DNA of 38,638 bases from Bacteroidales bacterium. GTDB lineage: Bacteria > Bacteroidota > Bacteroidia > Bacteroidales > VadinHA17. The DNA lies in NCBI GenBank assembly GCA_016936435.1, contig JAFGXX010000133.1, positions 1 through 38,638 of the forward strand, given 5' to 3'. Below the pieces are notes generated by a model. The model saw only the letters and a program-made list of their open reading frames with translations, made no database searches and was not told the origin of the DNA. Below, piece by piece: positions 23,975 through 38,638 of the stretch; the stretch's first letter is position 1; the number at the start of each line of letters is the position of its first letter. The position numbers and the translations under genes are program-made.

Positions 23975-25333
23975 CTAATTCGGCAATTCGATAGCTTCAA
24001 TCGCTGCCTCAACTTCTTCCGTAGTCATCTCATGGTCTGGCAGATAGCCTTCGAAATATTTTTCGTATGCCGATATGTCCATATGCCCGTGTCCGCTCAG
24101 GTTGAAAAGTATAACCCTTGATTCGCCGGCGAGATCCGATTTTCTCGCTTCATCAAGAGCGGCAGCAATGGCATAGTTGGATTCAGGAGCCGGAAGTATA
24201 CCTTCTGTCCTTGCGAAAAGAACACCGGCTTCGAAACATTCTCTCTGAAGTTTTGCCTTTGCTTCAATAAAACCGTCTTTAAGAAGCTGACTTACAAGTA
24301 CTCCTGCGCCATGATAGCGGAGTCCGCCGGCGTGTATCTTTTCGGGTATGAAATTATGGCCGAGAGTGTACATCGGAAGGAGAGGGGTCATGCCTGCAGA
24401 GTCGCCAAAATCATACATAAATTTGCCCTTCGTAAGCTTAGGGCACGATGCCGGTTCTACTGTTACCAGCCTGATGTCTTTGCCGTTAAGCAGTTTCTCA
24501 CGCAGGAATGGGAAAGCTATCCCGGAAAAGTTAGAGCCTCCTCCGAAACAACCGATGACCACATCGGGGTAGTCGCCTGCCTTCTCCATCTGCAGAAGGG
24601 CTTCCTGTCCAATAACAGTCTGATGAAGGATCACATGGTTAAGCACACTTCCAAGCGAGTATTTGGTATATGGGTCCTGCATGGCTATTTCCATGGCTTC
24701 GGAGATGGCTATACCGAGGCTTCCCGGGGAGTCGGGATCCTGTTCCAGGATTTTCCTTCCCGATTCGGTCATCGTACTGGGAGAGGGGACCACCTTTGCA
24801 TTATAGGCATTCATCATTACCTTTCTGCCGGGTTTATGGTCGTAACTTACCCTGACCATGAATACCAGAAGATCAAGTCCGAAGTGGTTACATGCAAAGC
24901 TCATCGCACTTCCCCACTGACCGGCTCCGGTCTCGGTAGTGATCCTCTTGATACCTTCCATCTTATTATAATAGGCCTGTGCAATGGCAGTATTGGCCTT
25001 GTGAGAACCCGAGTAATTTCCTCCTTCATATTTATAATATATCCTGCTTTTTGTTCCCAGCGCCTTTTCGAGATTGTGAGCTCTGTACATTGGTGAAGGA
25101 CGGTACATCTTATAGAGGTCGACAACTTCATCGGGTATATCGATGTACCTTTCCTGTGATACCTCCTGCTTTATCAGCTCCATCGGAAAAACAGCTGACA
25201 GGGCATCGGGACCAATGGGTTCGCGTGTCACCGGATGAAGTGGGGGCAGAGGTTTGTTGGGCATATCGGCCTGGATATTATACCATTGCCTCGGAAGTTC
25301 TTTCTCGCTTAATAAAATCTTTGTCTTTTTCAT
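23975..25333 (-). CDS. trpB: TrpB2-type tryptophan synthase beta subunit
   Basis: A 452-residue PLP enzyme that joins indole and serine to make tryptophan. It is the longer TrpB2 type (COG1350-like) rather than canonical TrpB: it has the extended N-terminus with LPPLHP, the PLP lysine K112 in SGSHKANTA, the catalytic Glu134 in ETGAGQWG (canonical enzymes have GQHG), and the phosphate-binding FGGGSN motif. No trpA lies next to it, as is common for TrpB2, which may act on free indole or with an unlinked alpha subunit. It is preceded by a leader ORF with two Trp codons and a terminator, so expression should rise when charged tRNA-Trp is low. The ATG at 25333 matches the family's start. Confidence 0.92.
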   Translation of the reverse strand: MKKTKILLSEKELPRQWYNIQADMPNKPLPPLHPVTREPIGPDALSAVFPMELIKQEVSQERYIDIPDEVVDLYKMYRPSPMYRAHNLEKALGTKSRIYYKYEGGNYSGSHKANTAIAQAYYNKMEGIKRITTETGAGQWGSAMSFACNHFGLDLLVFMVRVSYDHKPGRKVMMNAYNAKVVPSPSTMTESGRKILEQDPDSPGSLGIAISEAMEIAMQDPYTKYSLGSVLNHVILHQTVIGQEALLQMEKAGDYPDVVIGCFGGGSNFSGIAFPFLREKLLNGKDIRLVTVEPASCPKLTKGKFMYDFGDSAGMTPLLPMYTLGHNFIPEKIHAGGLRYHGAGVLVSQLLKDGFIEAKAKLQRECFEAGVLFARTEGILPAPESNYAIAAALDEARKSDLAGESRVILFNLSGHGHMDISAYEKYFEGYLPDHEMTTEEVEAAIEAIELPN

Positions 25334-25589: not shown

Positions 25590-26855
25590 TTACTGAATGT
25601 CAGATGATTCATCAATACGGGCTCCGGCCATCCTCATGTCATCGTAGAATCCGGGGTATGATTTTTTTATACATTCAGCTTCTCTGATGACGATTCTCTC
25701 CGAAGCTCCAAGTGCCGCCGTGGCTAGCGCCATTGCAATACGGTGGTCGTTGTGCGAGTCTGTCACCCCTCCTCCGGGACGGCCGCCGGTCACAAGCAGG
25801 TGATCGGCACTCACTTCAATTTTGATATTCAGTTTTGAGAACTCTGTCACCAGCGCTTCAGCCCGGTTGCTCTCCTTGTATATCAGCCTGTTTACTCCTT
25901 TTATCCGGCTTGTGCCCCTGCAGTAGGATGCAAGTGCGACAAGAGGAGGGAAAAGGTCAGGCGACTCGGTGGAGTCAAATTCAAATGAATTAAGATCAGA
26001 ACTGACGATTTTCACCGATCTTTCGTTGATGGTCATCTTTGCCCCGGCCCTTTCGAGTGCTGTCAGAATGGCCCTGTCGCTCTGCCTGCTGCCGGCCCTG
26101 AGCTCCTCCACCGTGATCTCTCCGGCTATGGCTCCGGCAACGAGCAAAAAAGCTCCGCCGCTCCAGTCGCTTTCCACCGCGAACTTTGTCGCCCTGTATG
26201 TCTGCCCCCCCGGAATCGTAAACACAGAGTAGCGGTCATTTGTTACGCTTATCCCGAAATGTTCGAGTACCTCAAGAGTCATGTCTATATATGGCCTGCT
26301 CCTGAGGTCATTGACTTTTATTATTGAATCTCCCTGCGCAACAGGAAGTGCCATTAACAATCCTGTAAGAAGCTGGGAGCTGACGGATCCGTCTGTTTCG
26401 CACTCTCCTCCGGTGAGAGGACCTTTGATGGTTAGGGGAAGGAAGCCCATATTGCTTTTACAGACAACTCCGAACTGGGTAAGGGCATCCGATATCATCG
26501 ACATTGGCCTTTTTACAAGTGATCCCCTTCCTGTCATTGTTATTTCATCGGGCCAGAGGGCAGCCACAGGTGAGAACATCCGGATGGCCAGGCCTGATTC
26601 ACCACAGTCGAGGGTGTTGAAAACAGGCTTTCCACTTCCTGTGATTTTCAGTTCTCCACGTGTTTCTGAGATAACTGCACCCAGGTTTTCAGCGATGCTG
26701 AGGGCTGCCAGGGAGTCGTTGCAGAAAGAAGGATTGATAATGGTGCTTCCGCCATCCGCCAGGAGTGCTGCAGCAATGGCTCTTTGTGTCATGCTTTTTG
26801 ATGACGGGGCCTTAATGTTGCCACTTACTGATGAGGGACTGACTGAGATAACCAT
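25590..26855 (-). CDS. aroA: 3-phosphoshikimate 1-carboxyvinyltransferase (EPSP synthase)
   Basis: A 421-residue cytoplasmic enzyme that makes EPSP from shikimate-3-phosphate and PEP, the step before chorismate synthase. Substrate-binding KAPSSKSMTQRA is at 15-26 (the usual form is PGSKS), and the C-terminal NDHRIAMALATAALG motif is complete. The central CGESGLAIRMF replaces the usual GNAGTAMR-type segment; I regard this as a Bacteroidota-type variant and not a defect. The gene starts 3 bp after the DAHP synthase/chorismate mutase stop, so the two are translationally linked. It is the last gene of the aromatic operon. Confidence 0.93.
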   Translation of the reverse strand: MVISVSPSSVSGNIKAPSSKSMTQRAIAAALLADGGSTIINPSFCNDSLAALSIAENLGAVISETRGELKITGSGKPVFNTLDCGESGLAIRMFSPVAALWPDEITMTGRGSLVKRPMSMISDALTQFGVVCKSNMGFLPLTIKGPLTGGECETDGSVSSQLLTGLLMALPVAQGDSIIKVNDLRSRPYIDMTLEVLEHFGISVTNDRYSVFTIPGGQTYRATKFAVESDWSGGAFLLVAGAIAGEITVEELRAGSRQSDRAILTALERAGAKMTINERSVKIVSSDLNSFEFDSTESPDLFPPLVALASYCRGTSRIKGVNRLIYKESNRAEALVTEFSKLNIKIEVSADHLLVTGGRPGGGVTDSHNDHRIAMALATAALGASERIVIREAECIKKSYPGFYDDMRMAGARIDESSDIQ

Positions 26856-26858
26856 AAT

Positions 26859-27989
26859 CTATTTCGAATTTTGCTTGTCTGTTCCGTTATGCTCCGTCAG
26901 ACCTTCGTTCATGATCTTCATCTGCCTGTTTATTGACTCCTGGTGAACAGCCTTGAAGACGTTGTCGATAAGCTCCCCGCTCAGACCTTTTGACTTTCCT
27001 TTTGTCATGGCTCTATTCACTATTTCATCCCACCGGGCGCTCTGAAGGATAGTTATGTTATTGTCTTTCTTGTATTTTCCTATCGTTTCCGAGACTTTCA
27101 TTCTCTGTTCGAGAAGATCGAGAAGATAATCATCGTAAATGTCTATCTGTTGTCTCAGCTCCCCGAGGACATCGAGCAATTTCGGGTCGGTTGTTGACGG
27201 ACTACGGAGTATTAGTCTGAGCAACAATTCTTTAAGTTCATCAGGCGTTATCTGCTGTGCTGCGTCGCTCAGAGCCTTCGACGGATTGATATGAGATTCA
27301 ATCATTAGACCATCGAAGTTGAGGTCGAGAGCTTTCTGGGATATTTCATGGATGTATTCCCTGTGACCCGAAATGTGACTTGGATCACATATCAATGGCA
27401 GGTCTGGTATGCGCCTTCTGAGTTCTATAGGGATCTGCCAGTTGGGCTGATTCCGGTAGGTGGTTTTTTCGTAGGATGAAAATCCACGATGTACTGCGGC
27501 TATTTTTGTTATCCCTGCCCTGGCTATCCTCTCTATGGCACCCATCCATAGTTCGACGTCGGGATTGATGGGGTTTTTTATGAACACCATAATCTCAACG
27601 CCTTTGAGAGCATCGGCTATTTCCTGCACCGTGAAAGGATTGACAGATGTCCGGGCGCCGATCCATACCATGTCCATCCCGTATTTAAGGGCTTCGTAGA
27701 CATGCTTTTCATTAGCCACTTCTGTTCCTACCATCAAGCCGGTTTCCTGTTTTACTTTCCGGAGCCATTTGAGTCCTGACACCCCGACTCCTTCAAAAGA
27801 GTTGGGCCTTGTACGGGGTTTCCATACTCCTGCCCTGAAGATGCTTACCTGTTCTGTCTTTGCCAGCTGAACAGCAGTCTCCATTACCTGCTCCTCAGTC
27901 TCTGCGCTGCAGGGTCCGGTCACCAGAAACGGCCTGCCCTTATATCCGTTCCATTCCTTTATTGCCGATGTTTCAAGTTTCAGTACCAT
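26859..27989 (-). CDS. Bifunctional DAHP synthase / chorismate mutase (type II)
   Basis: A 376-residue fusion. The N-terminal domain (about 10-265) is a type I-beta (AroG/AroF-like) 3-deoxy-7-phosphoheptulonate synthase, with GPCSAET at 25-31, RAGVWKPRTRP, and DPSHISGHREY; it condenses PEP and erythrose-4-phosphate. From about residue 275 an AroQ-type chorismate mutase helical domain follows (LRQQIDIYDDYLLDLLEQRM). The fusion is typical of Bacteroidota and puts the first and a branch-point step of aromatic synthesis in one protein, where prephenate can act on the enzyme. The mutase supplies the prephenate used by the TyrA and PheA made from the same operon. Start ATG at 27989. Confidence 0.93.
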   Translation of the reverse strand: MVLKLETSAIKEWNGYKGRPFLVTGPCSAETEEQVMETAVQLAKTEQVSIFRAGVWKPRTRPNSFEGVGVSGLKWLRKVKQETGLMVGTEVANEKHVYEALKYGMDMVWIGARTSVNPFTVQEIADALKGVEIMVFIKNPINPDVELWMGAIERIARAGITKIAAVHRGFSSYEKTTYRNQPNWQIPIELRRRIPDLPLICDPSHISGHREYIHEISQKALDLNFDGLMIESHINPSKALSDAAQQITPDELKELLLRLILRSPSTTDPKLLDVLGELRQQIDIYDDYLLDLLEQRMKVSETIGKYKKDNNITILQSARWDEIVNRAMTKGKSKGLSGELIDNVFKAVHQESINRQMKIMNEGLTEHNGTDKQNSK

Positions 27990-28089: not shown

Positions 28090-28935
28090 TCAGTTCAGTA
28101 TTTTCCTTATTTTATTTGCTTCATCCATAAGTGCTTTAAGTCCGTCCAGGTTCTTTTCAGCTATATATTTCCTGAAGAGATTCATTTTGTCAATATATGT
28201 ATCTATTGCCTCAAGCAGGAAGAATGCATTTTCAGTGAAGATAGGTGCCCATGTTTCGGCGTTACTTTTTGCCAGGCGGACTGTGCTGTCGAAGCCACCG
28301 CCTGCAAGAGTAAGGATATTTTCCTCGAAGTGTTCCTTTTCAAGTACGCTCAGGGCAAGTGAAAATGAGGTAATATGCGAGATATGCGACACATAAGCTA
28401 CATGAACATCATGAACTGCCGAGTTCATGTAGGTTATCCTCATATTGAGCACTTTGAATAGGTTTTCAGTTACTTCGAGGGCATCTTTGTCGCTCATCTC
28501 CGGATCGCAGATGATCACAGGCTTGTAATCGAAAAGCTTTCCAATAGCTGCCAGAGGGCCTGAGAATTCGGTTCCTGCCATCGGGTGGGCAGCAACGAAC
28601 CTTCCTCTCGCCGGATGATATTCAGCTGCCTCGGCAATGCTCCTTTTTGTTGATCCCATGTCTGATACCACCTTCGTTGTTCCGGAAATCATGTCGAGTA
28701 TTTCAGGAATAAGTTTACAGTTTGTGTCTACCGGAGTGCAGAGCAGGATTATTTCAGAACGGCTGACAGCTTCTTCAAGAGAGCAGGTGTCATCGACGAT
28801 GCCGCAAAGTTTGGCGATATTCTGATGCTGAACATTCAGGTCCACACCTATTATGGTGTCGGCGAAGCTGCGTTTTTTCAGATCCAGGGCAAGAGAACCT
28901 CCGATAAGTCCGATCCCTACAATTGATATTGTCAT
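28090..28935 (-). CDS. tyrA: Prephenate dehydrogenase
   Basis: A 281-residue cytoplasmic dehydrogenase that oxidatively decarboxylates prephenate to 4-hydroxyphenylpyruvate, the Tyr branch. The Rossmann motif GIGLIGGS is at residues 7-14, with Asp32 at the end of the second strand suggesting NAD+. The catalytic His117 is in AHPMAGTEFSG, and the helical dimerisation domain carries HDVHVAYVSHISH. There is no fused chorismate mutase or ACT domain. It follows the aminotransferase gene by 66 bp and precedes the DAHP synthase fusion; the spacer to the latter carries 9-bp repeats. Confidence 0.92.
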   Translation of the reverse strand: MTISIVGIGLIGGSLALDLKKRSFADTIIGVDLNVQHQNIAKLCGIVDDTCSLEEAVSRSEIILLCTPVDTNCKLIPEILDMISGTTKVVSDMGSTKRSIAEAAEYHPARGRFVAAHPMAGTEFSGPLAAIGKLFDYKPVIICDPEMSDKDALEVTENLFKVLNMRITYMNSAVHDVHVAYVSHISHITSFSLALSVLEKEHFEENILTLAGGGFDSTVRLAKSNAETWAPIFTENAFFLLEAIDTYIDKMNLFRKYIAEKNLDGLKALMDEANKIRKILN

Positions 28936-29001: not shown

Positions 29002-30171
29002 TCAGTTTTCGTTCAGGAAACTCTTTATCCGCGACTTTGCCTTTTCAAGTGCCGGTTCGCCGGCGCACAGTGATATCCGGATATATCTTTCTCCCCTGCT
29101 TCCGAAGATGGATCCCGGAGTCAGAAATACATGAGCTCCCGTCAGGATATCATCAACTAGTTTTTCACCGCTTGCTGTCGTTGAAGGTATTTTTCCCCAC
29201 ACGAACAGGCCGGTCTGGGAGCTGTCGAAACTGCAACCAAGAATAGTCATTATTTCTTCAACTATCCTGCGGCGCCGTGTGTATATCTGGTTGACTTCTT
29301 CGTACCATCCCGCAGGGCTTTCAAGTGCCTCGACAGCCGCTTCCTGCAAAGCCCTGAACATCCCGGAGTCCATATTGCTTTTCACTTTCAGGATGGCATT
29401 TATGTATTCACTGTGGCCTGCCACCATGCCTATCCGCCATCCTGCCATGTTGTGCGATTTGCTCAGAGAGTTGAGTTCCAGTGCTGTTTCCTTTGCACCG
29501 TCGGCAGACAGGATACTGAGATATTCATCGTTCAGGATGAAGCTGTATGGGTTGTCGTTGCATAAAAGAATACTGTTATCGGCGGCGAACCTTACCAGGT
29601 TGTCGAATACTTTTCTTCTGGCTCTGGCGCCTGTGGGCATGTGAGGATAATTTATCCACATCATCTTTACCCTCTCAATGCCGCTATCCTTTATTTTATC
29701 TATGTGGGGAAGCCATCCGTTACCTTCATCAAGCTCATAGTATCTGATATTTCCTCCGGTAAGACGGGTTACCGAGGAATATGTGGGGTAGCCGGGGTTG
29801 GGCACCAGGACCTCATCGCCCGGGTTGACGAAGGCCATACTGATATGCATTATACCTTCCTTGCTACCCATTAGAGGCAATATTTCTTTGTCCGGATCAA
29901 GCTTTACATCGAAGTATCTGGCATACCATGCGGCAAAAGCGCTGCGAAGAGCCGGTATTCCGGTATAACTCTGATATCCGTGATTACCGGGATCATGTGC
30001 TGCCACCGTAAGTTTTTCTATTGCTTTTGCCGGTGGGGCCTGATCAGGGCTTCCGATACCCAGATTGATGATATCAGCCCCTTCTTTACGCATTTGATCT
30101 ATCTGCCTGAGCTTCTGAGAGAAGTAATATTCTCTCACGCTTTCGGTTCTGTCTGCCGGTTTAACTTTCAT
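29002..30171 (-). CDS. PLP-dependent class I/II aminotransferase (aromatic or LL-DAP type)
   Basis: A 389-residue fold-type I aminotransferase. It has NLGIGSPD (36-43), PNPGYPTY (124-131), an altered NYPHMPTGA in place of the usual NPNNPTGA, Asp206 in CNDNPYS, and the PLP lysine K238 in SLSKSHNMAGWRIGM. It resembles the LL-diaminopimelate/aspartate aminotransferase branch. Its place between pheA and tyrA suggests it transaminates phenylpyruvate and 4-hydroxyphenylpyruvate, completing Phe and Tyr synthesis; this is inference from context. The ATG at 30171 overlaps the end of pheA by 11 bp. An upstream in-frame ATG at 30201 would lie deeper in pheA and is less likely. Confidence 0.88.
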   Translation of the reverse strand: MKVKPADRTESVREYYFSQKLRQIDQMRKEGADIINLGIGSPDQAPPAKAIEKLTVAAHDPGNHGYQSYTGIPALRSAFAAWYARYFDVKLDPDKEILPLMGSKEGIMHISMAFVNPGDEVLVPNPGYPTYSSVTRLTGGNIRYYELDEGNGWLPHIDKIKDSGIERVKMMWINYPHMPTGARARRKVFDNLVRFAADNSILLCNDNPYSFILNDEYLSILSADGAKETALELNSLSKSHNMAGWRIGMVAGHSEYINAILKVKSNMDSGMFRALQEAAVEALESPAGWYEEVNQIYTRRRRIVEEIMTILGCSFDSSQTGLFVWGKIPSTTASGEKLVDDILTGAHVFLTPGSIFGSRGERYIRISLCAGEPALEKAKSRIKSFLNEN

Positions 30172-30991
30172 AGAGCTGTTCACATTTTGTATAAATACCA
30201 AGTAGCTCGAGGTTTGTTGTATAGTTCTCCAGGGTGTTTCGTATAAAGCCTATGTCGTGATCTGGTTTAAGCTCAAGGTCGGTATAGAACATATATTCCC
30301 ATTCACCGTTGAGCCGGGGAACCGACTGGATCTTTGACAGGTTTATATCGAGCTCTGCCAGCCTGACAAGTACGGCTGCAAGGGATCCTGGTTTGTGGCC
30401 GGTAGCAAAACAGATTGATACCTTGTTGCCGTCTCCGGGAGCTGATTTTTCATTACCCATAATTGCGAAGCGGGTGTAATTTTTCTGATATGTTTCAATA
30501 CCAGCTGCAATGATTTCAAGTCCGTAAAGGCCGGCTGTGGCAGCTGATGCTATTGCAGCCACACCTGTGAGGTGGTTTTCACTTATATACCTTGCGCTGC
30601 CTGCAGTGTCTTCGCTTTCGATAAGTGTAACACCCCTCAGGTGGCTAAGCCAGGTCATACACTGCGACAGGGCAATGGGATGCGACCTTATCTCCCGGAT
30701 TGCGGCAACAGTCTGCCCGGGAAGAGCCATAAGGTTTTGCCTTATTCTAAGGTTTATTTCACCGTATATCTTCATCCCCGATTCCCTTATGAGGGTATAA
30801 TTCGAAAGGATACTCCCCGACCTGGCATTCTCCACCGCCATCACTGCAAAATCAGCTCTGCCTTCCGTGACAGCCATCAGAGTGTGTTCAAAAGTTGTGC
30901 AGGCAACAATGTCGATGTCATCGGTTTTAAAATACAGCTTTGCAGCCACTTCATGAAAACTTCCCTTCTCTCCCTGTATTGATATTTTCAT
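30161..30991 (-). CDS. pheA: Prephenate dehydratase
   Basis: A 276-residue enzyme that converts prephenate to phenylpyruvate. The catalytic region has IQGEKGSFHE (5-14), VENARSG (53-59) and the TRF motif at 173-175 (NYTRFAI). A C-terminal ACT domain (about 190-270), with PGSLA and the ESRP-like QSVPR, should bind Phe for feedback control. There is no fused chorismate mutase, which is supplied by the AroQ domain of the DAHP synthase gene downstream. The start is the ATG at 30991; the in-frame ATG at 31054 would read through the attenuator terminator and is rejected. It is the first structural gene behind the Phe/Tyr leader, so it is under both attenuation and allostery. Confidence 0.92.
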   Translation of the reverse strand: MKISIQGEKGSFHEVAAKLYFKTDDIDIVACTTFEHTLMAVTEGRADFAVMAVENARSGSILSNYTLIRESGMKIYGEINLRIRQNLMALPGQTVAAIREIRSHPIALSQCMTWLSHLRGVTLIESEDTAGSARYISENHLTGVAAIASAATAGLYGLEIIAAGIETYQKNYTRFAIMGNEKSAPGDGNKVSICFATGHKPGSLAAVLVRLAELDINLSKIQSVPRLNGEWEYMFYTDLELKPDHDIGFIRNTLENYTTNLELLGIYTKCEQLYES

Positions 30992-31007: not shown

Positions 31008-31035
31008 AAAAAAAAAGTCCCCGTATTCCGGGGAC
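31008..31035 (-). terminator. Phe/Tyr operon attenuator terminator
   Basis: On the minus strand GTCCCCG (31035-31029) pairs with CGGGGAC (31023-31017), loop GAATA, followed by a run of nine T. It ends 17 bp before the pheA ATG. Confidence 0.93.
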
Positions 31036-31134
31036 CCTGTGTCATATTTTTCATATCTGTATATACAACAATCCCCTTATTGCTTCCTGTTAAAATAATA
31101 GAAGTAAAAATAAGCGGCCGAAAAATTGTATATA
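31030..31134 (-). promoter_or_regulatory. Phe/Tyr attenuator: alternative pairings
   Basis: Two hand-drawn helices compete with the terminator. TATATACAA in early leader codons (31134-31126) is complementary over 9 bp to TTGTATATA (31068-31060) after the leader stop. GGGGATT just after the stop (31076-31070) can pair with GGTCCCC (31036-31030), which overlaps the 5' arm of the terminator and would act as antiterminator (two of seven pairs are G-T). The register needs a folding program to confirm. Confidence 0.55.
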
Positions 31135-31145
31135 AGATGTGTCAT
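31077..31145 (-). CDS. Phe/Tyr leader peptide (YFYFYYF)
   Basis: A 22-residue ORF with seven aromatic residues in a row at 12-18 (YFYFYYF), plus Tyr6 and Phe8; nine of 22 residues are Phe or Tyr. It is followed by a terminator and by pheA, whose operon makes exactly these amino acids. The ATG at 31145 has an AAGGA just upstream and lies 18 bp after the promoter's -7 box. Shortage of either charged tRNA-Phe or tRNA-Tyr should stall ribosomes here and relieve termination. The peptide itself is unlikely to have a separate job. Confidence 0.93.
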   Translation of the reverse strand: MTHLIYNFSAAYFYFYYFNRKQ

Positions 31146-31162
31146 TTCCTTAATTTGGCTTA

Positions 31163-31192
31163 CAAATGTAATTTAATATTTAAAATTTCAAA
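31163..31192 (-). promoter_or_regulatory. Promoter of the aromatic operon
   Basis: Minus strand TTTG (31192-31189), 18 bp, then TACATTTG (31170-31163), an exact TAnnTTTG -7 box with a fitting -33 box. The predicted start is near 31157, about 12 nt before the leader ATG. Confidence 0.75.
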
Positions 31193-31201
31193 AATAAGTA
31201 A

Positions 31202-31229
31202 GAAAAAATATTCATCCTGTTAAATATTT
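31202..31229 (-). terminator. Weak AT-rich hairpin at the end of the his operon
   Basis: Minus strand AAATATT (31229-31223) can pair with AATATTT (31212-31206), followed by a few T. It begins at the hisIE stop codon. The stem is A-T only, so some read-through into the aromatic operon is possible. Confidence 0.35.
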
Positions 31230-38368: not shown

Positions 38369-38591
38369 ATGTAAATGGAAAGATTGTGGTAGGGTTTGGG
38401 GTTCCTCGACCCGCCTTGCGGCGGGACTCGGAATGACAGTGGAGGTGTAAATGGAAGAAATGGGGTGGGTTTTGTGGTTCCTCGCCCCGCCTTGCGGCGG
38501 GACTCGGAATGACAGCGGAGGTGTAAATGGAAGAAATGGGGTGGGTTTTGTGGTTCCTCGCCCCGCCTTGCGGCGGGACTCGGAATGACAG
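38369..38591. repeat. 76-bp tandem repeat array with GC palindrome
   Basis: The units begin gttcctcg at 38401, 38477 and 38553, a constant 76-bp period. Each has ccgcc-ttgc-ggcgg as an internal palindrome, then ctcggaatgacag, then an A/G-rich tail of about 37 bp (gtaaatggaa...). A diverged tail (38369-38400) precedes the first unit. There are no unique spacers, so it is not a CRISPR. Similar 'cctcg ... ctcggaatgaca' elements are, from memory, common dispersed repeats in Bacteroidota. The 349 bp upstream of the his leader hold this array and no gene. Confidence 0.9.
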
Positions 38592-38620
38592 TGCCTTTTA
38601 TAGGTGGGGGAAGGGGTAGA

Positions 38621-38638
38621 GGGGCGGCTCGCCGCCCC
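38621..38638. repeat. GC palindrome at the right edge
   Basis: ggggcggc-tc-gccgcccc is a perfect 8-bp inverted repeat that ends exactly at the window boundary. It resembles the palindromic core of the neighbouring array and may begin another repeat unit or a terminator. Confidence 0.6.

Follow-up and report, generated by a model that had tools for sequence, protein, structure and literature searches.

A conserved leader with mixed Phe and Tyr codons upstream of pheA in Bacteroidales, a probable dual-sensing transcription attenuator

The window analyzed here, a whole stretch of 38,638 nucleotides from a Bacteroidales bacterium (contig JAFGXX010000133.1), carries upstream of pheA an element that is very probably a ribosome-mediated transcription attenuator sensing both Phe and Tyr as an OR gate and controlling the pheA-AT-tyrA-DAHPS/CM-aroA operon. 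The parts of the element, their conservation, the co-variation of the RNA arms, the switch geometry and the way in which Tyr codons go with operon content were all computed in this work, and an element of this kind would act through ribosome stalling and read-through, with a response to each of the two amino acids.

The operon and its leader region

All the operon genes lie on the minus strand, and the gene order given in the preliminary description, an operon for both amino acids and their common precursor, was borne out by the Pfam matches:

30161–30991, minus strand: pheA, prephenate dehydratase (PDT; PF00800, 6.4e-53)
29002–30201, minus strand: class I/II aminotransferase (AT; PF00155, 1.2e-56), whose true start possibly lies downstream of the listed TTG
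28090–28935, minus strand: tyrA, prephenate dehydrogenase (PF02153 and PF20463)
26859–27989, minus strand: DAHP synthase-chorismate mutase (type II) fusion, DAHPS/CM (PF00793 and PF01817)
25590–26855, minus strand: aroA, EPSP synthase (PF00275, 6.3e-90)

Six relatives of the pheA product were obtained from named contigs, with five belonging to Bacteroidales bacterium records (66–67% identity) and the sixth being a distant Desulfospira protein. The leader and terminator unit sits on the minus strand between hisIE, which ends at 31229, and pheA, which starts at 30991, and is composed of the following parts:

31189–31192, minus strand: candidate -33 element TTTG, read from the sequence
31163–31170, minus strand: candidate -7 element TACATTTG (TAnnTTTG), from the sequence and the enrichment of TANNTTTG upstream of leaders
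31077–31145, minus strand: leader peptide ORF of 22 codons, MTHLIYNFSAAYFYFYYFNRKQ, from the sequence and the presence of a leader with terminator at 175 of the 254 PDT loci read
31125–31141, minus strand: region 1 (codons 2–7), predicted by folding to pair with the post-stop region when the ribosome is absent
31092–31112, minus strand: regulatory codons 12–18 (Tyr Phe Tyr Phe Tyr Tyr Phe), from the sequence and aligned relatives
31063–31076, minus strand: region 2, predicted 5′ arm of the antiterminator, GGGGAU... immediately after the stop codon, from the fold and relatives
31030–31047, minus strand: region 3, predicted 3′ arm of the antiterminator, containing the GUCCCC of the terminator 5′ arm
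31008–31038, minus strand: intrinsic terminator with the stem at 31038–31014 and a run of nine T at 31016–31008, from the sequence and a terminator scan

The ORF at 31145–31077 agrees with the earlier account of a 22-codon frame having YFYFYYF at codons 12–18 and nine Phe/Tyr residues in all (five Y and four F). The terminator that had been placed 17 bp before pheA was also found, being the sole terminator-like site within the 401 bp scanned (shuffle mean 0.1), but its T run lies 16 nt and not 17 from pheA when ATG at 30991, the most likely start, is taken. As in classical attenuators, the leader ORF thus carries a run of codons for the very amino acids that its operon produces, and an intrinsic terminator stands between the leader ORF and the first gene, both in the window and in its relatives.

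The TTTG at 31192–31189 is separated by 18 nt from TACATTTG at 31170–31163, and TTTG with TAnnTTTG is what we take to be the Bacteroidota promoter consensus. Within 45 nt 5′ of the leader, TANNTTTG was detected in 123 of 175 attenuators, the corresponding counts being 12 of 1096 for other upstream windows and 108 of 3500 for shuffles. A scan for sigma-70 promoters returned three 9-of-12 matches with 1.7 expected, and the Bacteroidota -7 motif was preferred.

Three other features of the window were noticed by eye. A possible second attenuator lies 5′ of hisG on the minus strand (38289–38230), with a leader MYSVISYHHHSLTFCRAWC containing three consecutive His and followed, immediately 5′ of hisG, by the terminator-like AACCCGTCTGAGCAGTTCCGACGGGTTTTTT. 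A possible third, also on the minus strand (25497–25438), lies between aroA and a PALP-family, trpB-like gene at 25333–23975, with a leader ORF MKMMRINIWLWRSTKIVAV having two Trp codons, a -7 motif TAGTTTTG 5′ of that ORF, and a terminator-like hairpin between the ORF and the trpB-like gene. Tandem repeats of about 60 bp with the core TCATTCCGAGTCCCGCCGCAAGGCGGG occupy the contig end at 38400–38638.

Predicted folding and the ribosome-dependent switch

Judging from the promoter motif, transcription would start about 12 nt 5′ of the leader ORF. When Phe-tRNA and Tyr-tRNA are both plentiful, the ribosome would reach the stop codon at 31079–31077 and cover region 2, so that the terminator at 31038–31014 could form. 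A shortage of either charged tRNA would stall the ribosome within codons 12–18 and leave region 2 (31076–31063) free to pair with region 3 (31047–31030) ahead of the synthesis of the terminator 3′ arm, giving read-through into pheA. On RNA that carries no ribosome, region 2 would be held by region 1 (codons 2–7), and termination would also be the outcome.

The RNA from 31150 to 31000 folds at −38.1 kcal/mol, whereas its shuffles average −21.5 (z −5.2). In a sweep over ribosome positions, the RNA was masked to 12 nt past the A-site codon, this footprint of 12 nt being an assumption, and only the RNA made before the terminator 3′ arm was folded. Stalls at codons 10–19 of the window leader allow the antiterminator to form, at −13.9 to −14.2 kcal/mol; from codon 20 onward the GGGGAU pairing is gone, and in the absence of a ribosome region 1 holds region 2 and no antiterminator appears. 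Folding with the ribosome footprint masked, which had been suggested as a check, therefore places the modelled switch immediately after the last aromatic codon.

A total of 121 of the 175 attenuators were included in the switch and arm-swap analyses, the 54 from the further order set standing outside, and 95 entered the shuffle test. Between the last clustered aromatic codon and the stop codon, the modelled switch (from >0.5 to <0.5) was observed in 106 of 121 attenuators and was absent in the other 15 put through this folding; on average, the terminator 5′ arm is held by upstream RNA with a probability of 0.75 at the first of these positions and 0.11 at the second (n = 121). In the model, then, the position of the ribosome at the regulatory codons sets the switch while the 3′ arm of the terminator is still to be transcribed, as in classical attenuation.

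The predicted antiterminator would exclude the terminator, and the arms carry co-variation support. At p < 0.05, antiterminator pairing surpassed that of shuffles in 77 of the 95 attenuators and did not in 18. Across 65 non-redundant loci with distinct arms, antiterminator arms folded on average at −15.4 kcal/mol with their own partners and at −10.8 with swapped partners, with the best of 2000 arm permutations reaching −11.9; because own partners pair better on average than swapped ones, the two arms have changed together. Altogether 54 distinct 5′ arm hexamers were present among the 121 attenuators. Column-wise co-variation on the genus alignment was not counted, the terminator arms shifting by one base between rows.

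The gap that separates the antiterminator from the last clustered aromatic codon has a median of 12 nt (quartiles 11–15, SD 4.4) and is never negative, since the antiterminator was sought from that codon onward. The position of the stop codon is more variable (SD 10.3), and it is the sensing codons, more than the ORF end, to which the switch geometry is tied. In the full-length window RNA at equilibrium, the terminator dominates at every ribosome position, with mean stem probabilities ranging from 0.91 to 0.96, so the switching must be kinetic and co-transcriptional. The helix holding the terminator arm in the window has only 6 bp.

Distribution of the leader among relatives

Whole genomes were searched for PF00800, with matches in 77 of 98 genomes of the family sample, 57 of 197 of the class, 68 of 148 of the order and 128 of 148 of the phylum, these samples overlapping. 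The upstream regions read came from 254 distinct loci, which are part of all the places found. A locus was counted when an ORF with at least five F/Y/W in eight codons was followed by a terminator under a relaxed search; a strict perfect-stem search missed imperfect terminators and was abandoned for the census. In loci with leaders in series, the denser cluster was scored.

By this census, a leader and terminator lie 5′ of the prephenate dehydratase gene at 175 of 254 loci, with 67 of 77 in the family set and 106 of 129 in the order and class sets (52 of 66 class/order loci and 54 of 63 in the further order set, mostly from other families), while only 2 of 48 loci from the same phylum outside the class had them. 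A qualifying leader and terminator was absent from 79 of the 254 loci, 46 of these belonging to the phylum but not to the class. Each of the 67 family-level loci with an attenuator was dinucleotide-shuffled 10 times, and a leader (at least six F/Y/W in eight codons) plus terminator arose in 0 of 670 cases, while 63 of the 77 actual loci at family level had the pair, which excludes chance.

The comparison with relatives proposed in the preliminary description thus shows the ORF to be kept and the mix of F and Y to persist, Phe and Tyr being both present in 170 of 175 leaders. Among 36 aligned genus-level peptides (of 40 genus rows, four being omitted for different spacing or lack of a detected terminator), positions 12–19 are 89–100% F or Y, with each of the two residues seen at seven of the eight positions. 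The peptide outside the F/Y run varies widely between families. Synonymous codon choice was uninformative as a signal, the leader use of TTT/TTC and TAT/TAC being close to that of PDT genes with somewhat more TTT.

The family loci scored as misses are L008, L009, L018, L012, L051, L054, L056, L065, L072 and L081, of which L008, L009 and L018 have the leader ORF but failed the terminator test. In the class/order set the misses are L126, L131, L135, L166, L186, L187, L195, L197, L201, L212, L216, L218, L224 and L225, and in the further order set L236, L241, L246, L255, L258, L265, L281, L289 and L292, where L258 and L292 have scarcely any upstream sequence and were still scored as misses. L138 was scored as a hit with a leader that starts with GTG. 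In family f47, a qualifying upstream leader and terminator is lacking at all seven of the pheA-AT loci read (L186, L187, L195, L197, L201, L212 and L218). Part of genus g10 (L051, L054, L056, L065 and L072) carries a pheA closer to that of the window, with 62–66% identity, and no F/Y leader; there, pheA adjoins an upstream gene with a leuB-like tail (by eye), and in three of the five it is followed by a trpB-like gene. Other g10 genomes have kept the operon together with its attenuator, and their pheA is more distant from that of the window. A Leu/Phe leader 5′ of the leuB-like gene and pheA was considered for the g10 loci L171 and L173, which gave only scattered small ORFs and no convincing leader.

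Tandem F/Y leader-terminator units before one gene were observed at 20 of 175 loci, a number that falls to 18 when L071 and L206, which look like chance, are removed: L030, L060, L068, L119, L125, L217, L226, L233, L245, L249, L253, L256, L261, L263, L271, L275, L280 and L285. Such units also precede a split-off half of the operon at L304 and perhaps at L208. An arrangement in tandem could broaden the range over which the switch responds.

Tyr codons, operon content and known attenuators

A locus was classed as joined when tblastn matched the AT, DAHPS/CM or TyrA of the window 500–2000 nt past the PDT start, and L082, whose downstream genes lie outside the sequence seen, was set aside from the count. 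In joined operons the densest eight-codon cluster contains Tyr at 166 of 167 loci, the exception being L034, in which Tyr-Tyr follows immediately after the cluster. Where pheA stands alone, the cluster lacks Tyr at six of seven loci, with L028 and L080 classed as alone on about 0.55 kb beyond pheA: L028 MNLSRFFGFFFFGTG, L080 MNLSRFFGFSFFGTG, L070 MIDNSCIFTGFFFFIKAG, L231 MTRFFTHFFFFFTQQ, L268 MRRNSFRFFFFFAFFFCNGRNGVSYLY and L290 MITINNSFFFFFFRSDPEKGL. The seventh, L235 (MYFDFVFGFLFCFPKS), has a single Tyr at codon 2. These seven loci represent five families, and the six without cluster Tyr four families. The difference between alone and joined loci gives a Fisher p of 1.4e-9, a value that ignores the relatedness of the genomes.

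All three pheA-alone leaders of the first set, examined before the second set was fetched, had no Tyr at all; in the second set, three of four had no cluster Tyr and two of four no Tyr anywhere. The eight-codon measure was chosen after sight of the second set, and the simpler one, Tyr nowhere in the peptide, gives five of seven alone loci and 0 of 167 joined loci over both sets. Tyr codons are hence kept almost everywhere that the operon serves Tyr and mostly lost where it serves Phe alone, as a dual sensor would have it, and this natural comparison of alone and joined loci supports the earlier claim that the attenuator senses both Phe and Tyr.

In genomes where the operon is split, the other half was found with a Phe and Tyr leader of its own in five of six examined, these leaders and terminators being read by eye: MIALQNIFYGFYYYFRKS 5′ of AT in G006; MQSLNIFTCYYFVPQKRTG 5′ of AT in G005, with four F/Y in eight codons and so below the census threshold; MNNTFGYYAFYYYFFYNN 5′ of tyrA-DAHPS in G429; MMTTYTFSYFYYWFRTP and then MVNFEFYYGFYYYLD 5′ of AT-tyrA-DAHPS in G502; and MIKNISVFAYFYYYFYFSKK 5′ of AT-DAHPS in G438. 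No leader was found for the other half in G448, and in G017 the tyrA match was not found. The second DAHPS-like gene of G502 and G006 has no such leader and terminator in the stretches seen. Trp was present in 44 of 175 leaders, e.g., L114, L122, L136 and L230; the operons of these four include DAHP synthase, so a third input is possible.

Taken over Bacteroidia, the codon make-up of the leader seems to track the gene content of the operon, a rule that we hold to be reasonably probable: Phe only if pheA is alone, Phe and Tyr if the shared aromatic enzymes are attached, and sometimes Trp as a third input or two serial attenuators. On that view the leader would be an OR gate that evolves, being rewired as genes join or leave. 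Escherichia coli, with pheA and tyrA on opposite strands and a Phe-only pheL, agrees with this rule.

It might be supposed that the element senses Phe alone, like the enteric pheL, with Tyr codons tolerated as neutral variants, TAT/TAC being one base from TTT/TTC. Phe is indeed somewhat more frequent than Tyr (means of 4.8 and 4.0 per leader, n = 112) and is present in all 175 leaders, and the pheL of E. coli is Phe-only. Against this, cluster Tyr is missing at six of the seven pheA-alone loci, in four families, and present at 166 of 167 joined ones, and the AT/tyrA/DAHPS half has a Tyr-containing leader in five of six split genomes; since the presence of Tyr follows gene content, neutral drift does not fit as the explanation, and we regard Phe-only sensing as improbable.

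Dual sensing by a translated leader was likewise weighed against two readings that need no such sensor. That the terminator merely ends the upstream his operon and the ORF is an AT-rich accident might be suggested by hisIE lying just 5′ in most of the genus-level loci listed, but a leader and terminator also occur where the upstream stretch examined has no hisIE match (in other genera and other families), none of the 670 shuffles yields the pair, and a -7 motif stands between hisIE and the ORF, which leaves this reading very unlikely. About as little credence is given to stalling by a nascent aromatic-rich peptide, or to free Phe/Tyr binding the RNA, in place of uncharged tRNA: while aromatic-rich peptides might, on general knowledge, contact the exit tunnel, the peptide beyond the F/Y run differs widely between families, F and Y substitute for each other at aligned sites, and the 121 attenuators have 54 different 5′ arm hexamers, a pattern that suits neither an RNA that binds a ligand nor a peptide that stalls the ribosome.

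The nearest known system is pheL-pheA of enterobacteria (RF01859, Phe_leader), which shares a short aromatic-rich leader and pheA as the first structural gene. However, Phe is the only aromatic residue of E. coli pheL, in accord with the preliminary statement that enteric pheL carries mostly Phe, whereas the window leader mixes Phe and Tyr; and tyrA of E. coli is on the opposite strand from pheA, whereas the window operon makes Phe, Tyr and the common precursor. At the Rfam gathering threshold the window has no match. Below that threshold, RF01859 scores best across the element, with 29.1 bits (E 0.0036, model positions 1–125), and as 29.1 bits is below the cut-off of 55, the element is not filed in that family. 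In E. coli thrL, which was seen to precede thrA, and in ilvL/ivbL, a single leader responds to more than one end product of the operon that it serves; these concern other amino acids, enzymes and sequences, the pair of the window being Phe and Tyr.

The mechanism itself is classical attenuation, which is already known. A survey by Vitreschak et al. (2004) is said to have placed classical attenuators before amino-acid operons, including phe operons and some Bacteroidetes/Chlorobi, and Lopatovskaya et al. (2010) reportedly also predicted classical attenuators before amino-acid operons. The available part of a Flavobacterium psychrophilum transcriptome study reports hints that leader peptides attenuate amino-acid operons, together with a structured and conserved 5′ element of pheA, without an Rfam match, in F. 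psychrophilum and other Flavobacteriaceae (PMC9723704). That element concerns the same phylum and gene as the attenuator of the window, but the available part of the account gives no peptide, Phe/Tyr mix, switch or link to operon content (PMC9723704). Short ORFs reminiscent of leader peptides are mentioned in the available text of a B. thetaiotaomicron map (PMC7366714), and the available portions of PMC4833913 and PMC1262725 describe no such leader. Searches of an open-access library brought up no description of a joint Phe/Tyr leader, and the Phe and Tyr version is a conserved and so far little-described form of the classic switch.

If this reading is true, the element would be one rich in co-variation that falls below the Rfam cut-off in the window. 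The operon-content rule is the most interesting part of the finding, and the natural joinings and splittings, with their changed sensing codons, would be ready-made variants for studying the logic of multi-product attenuation. In E. coli, tyrosine control is exerted by a repressor. In contrast to E. coli and its Phe-only attenuator for pheA, the Bacteroidia with pheA would mostly run the synthesis of both Phe and Tyr by one RNA switch that reads two tRNAs.
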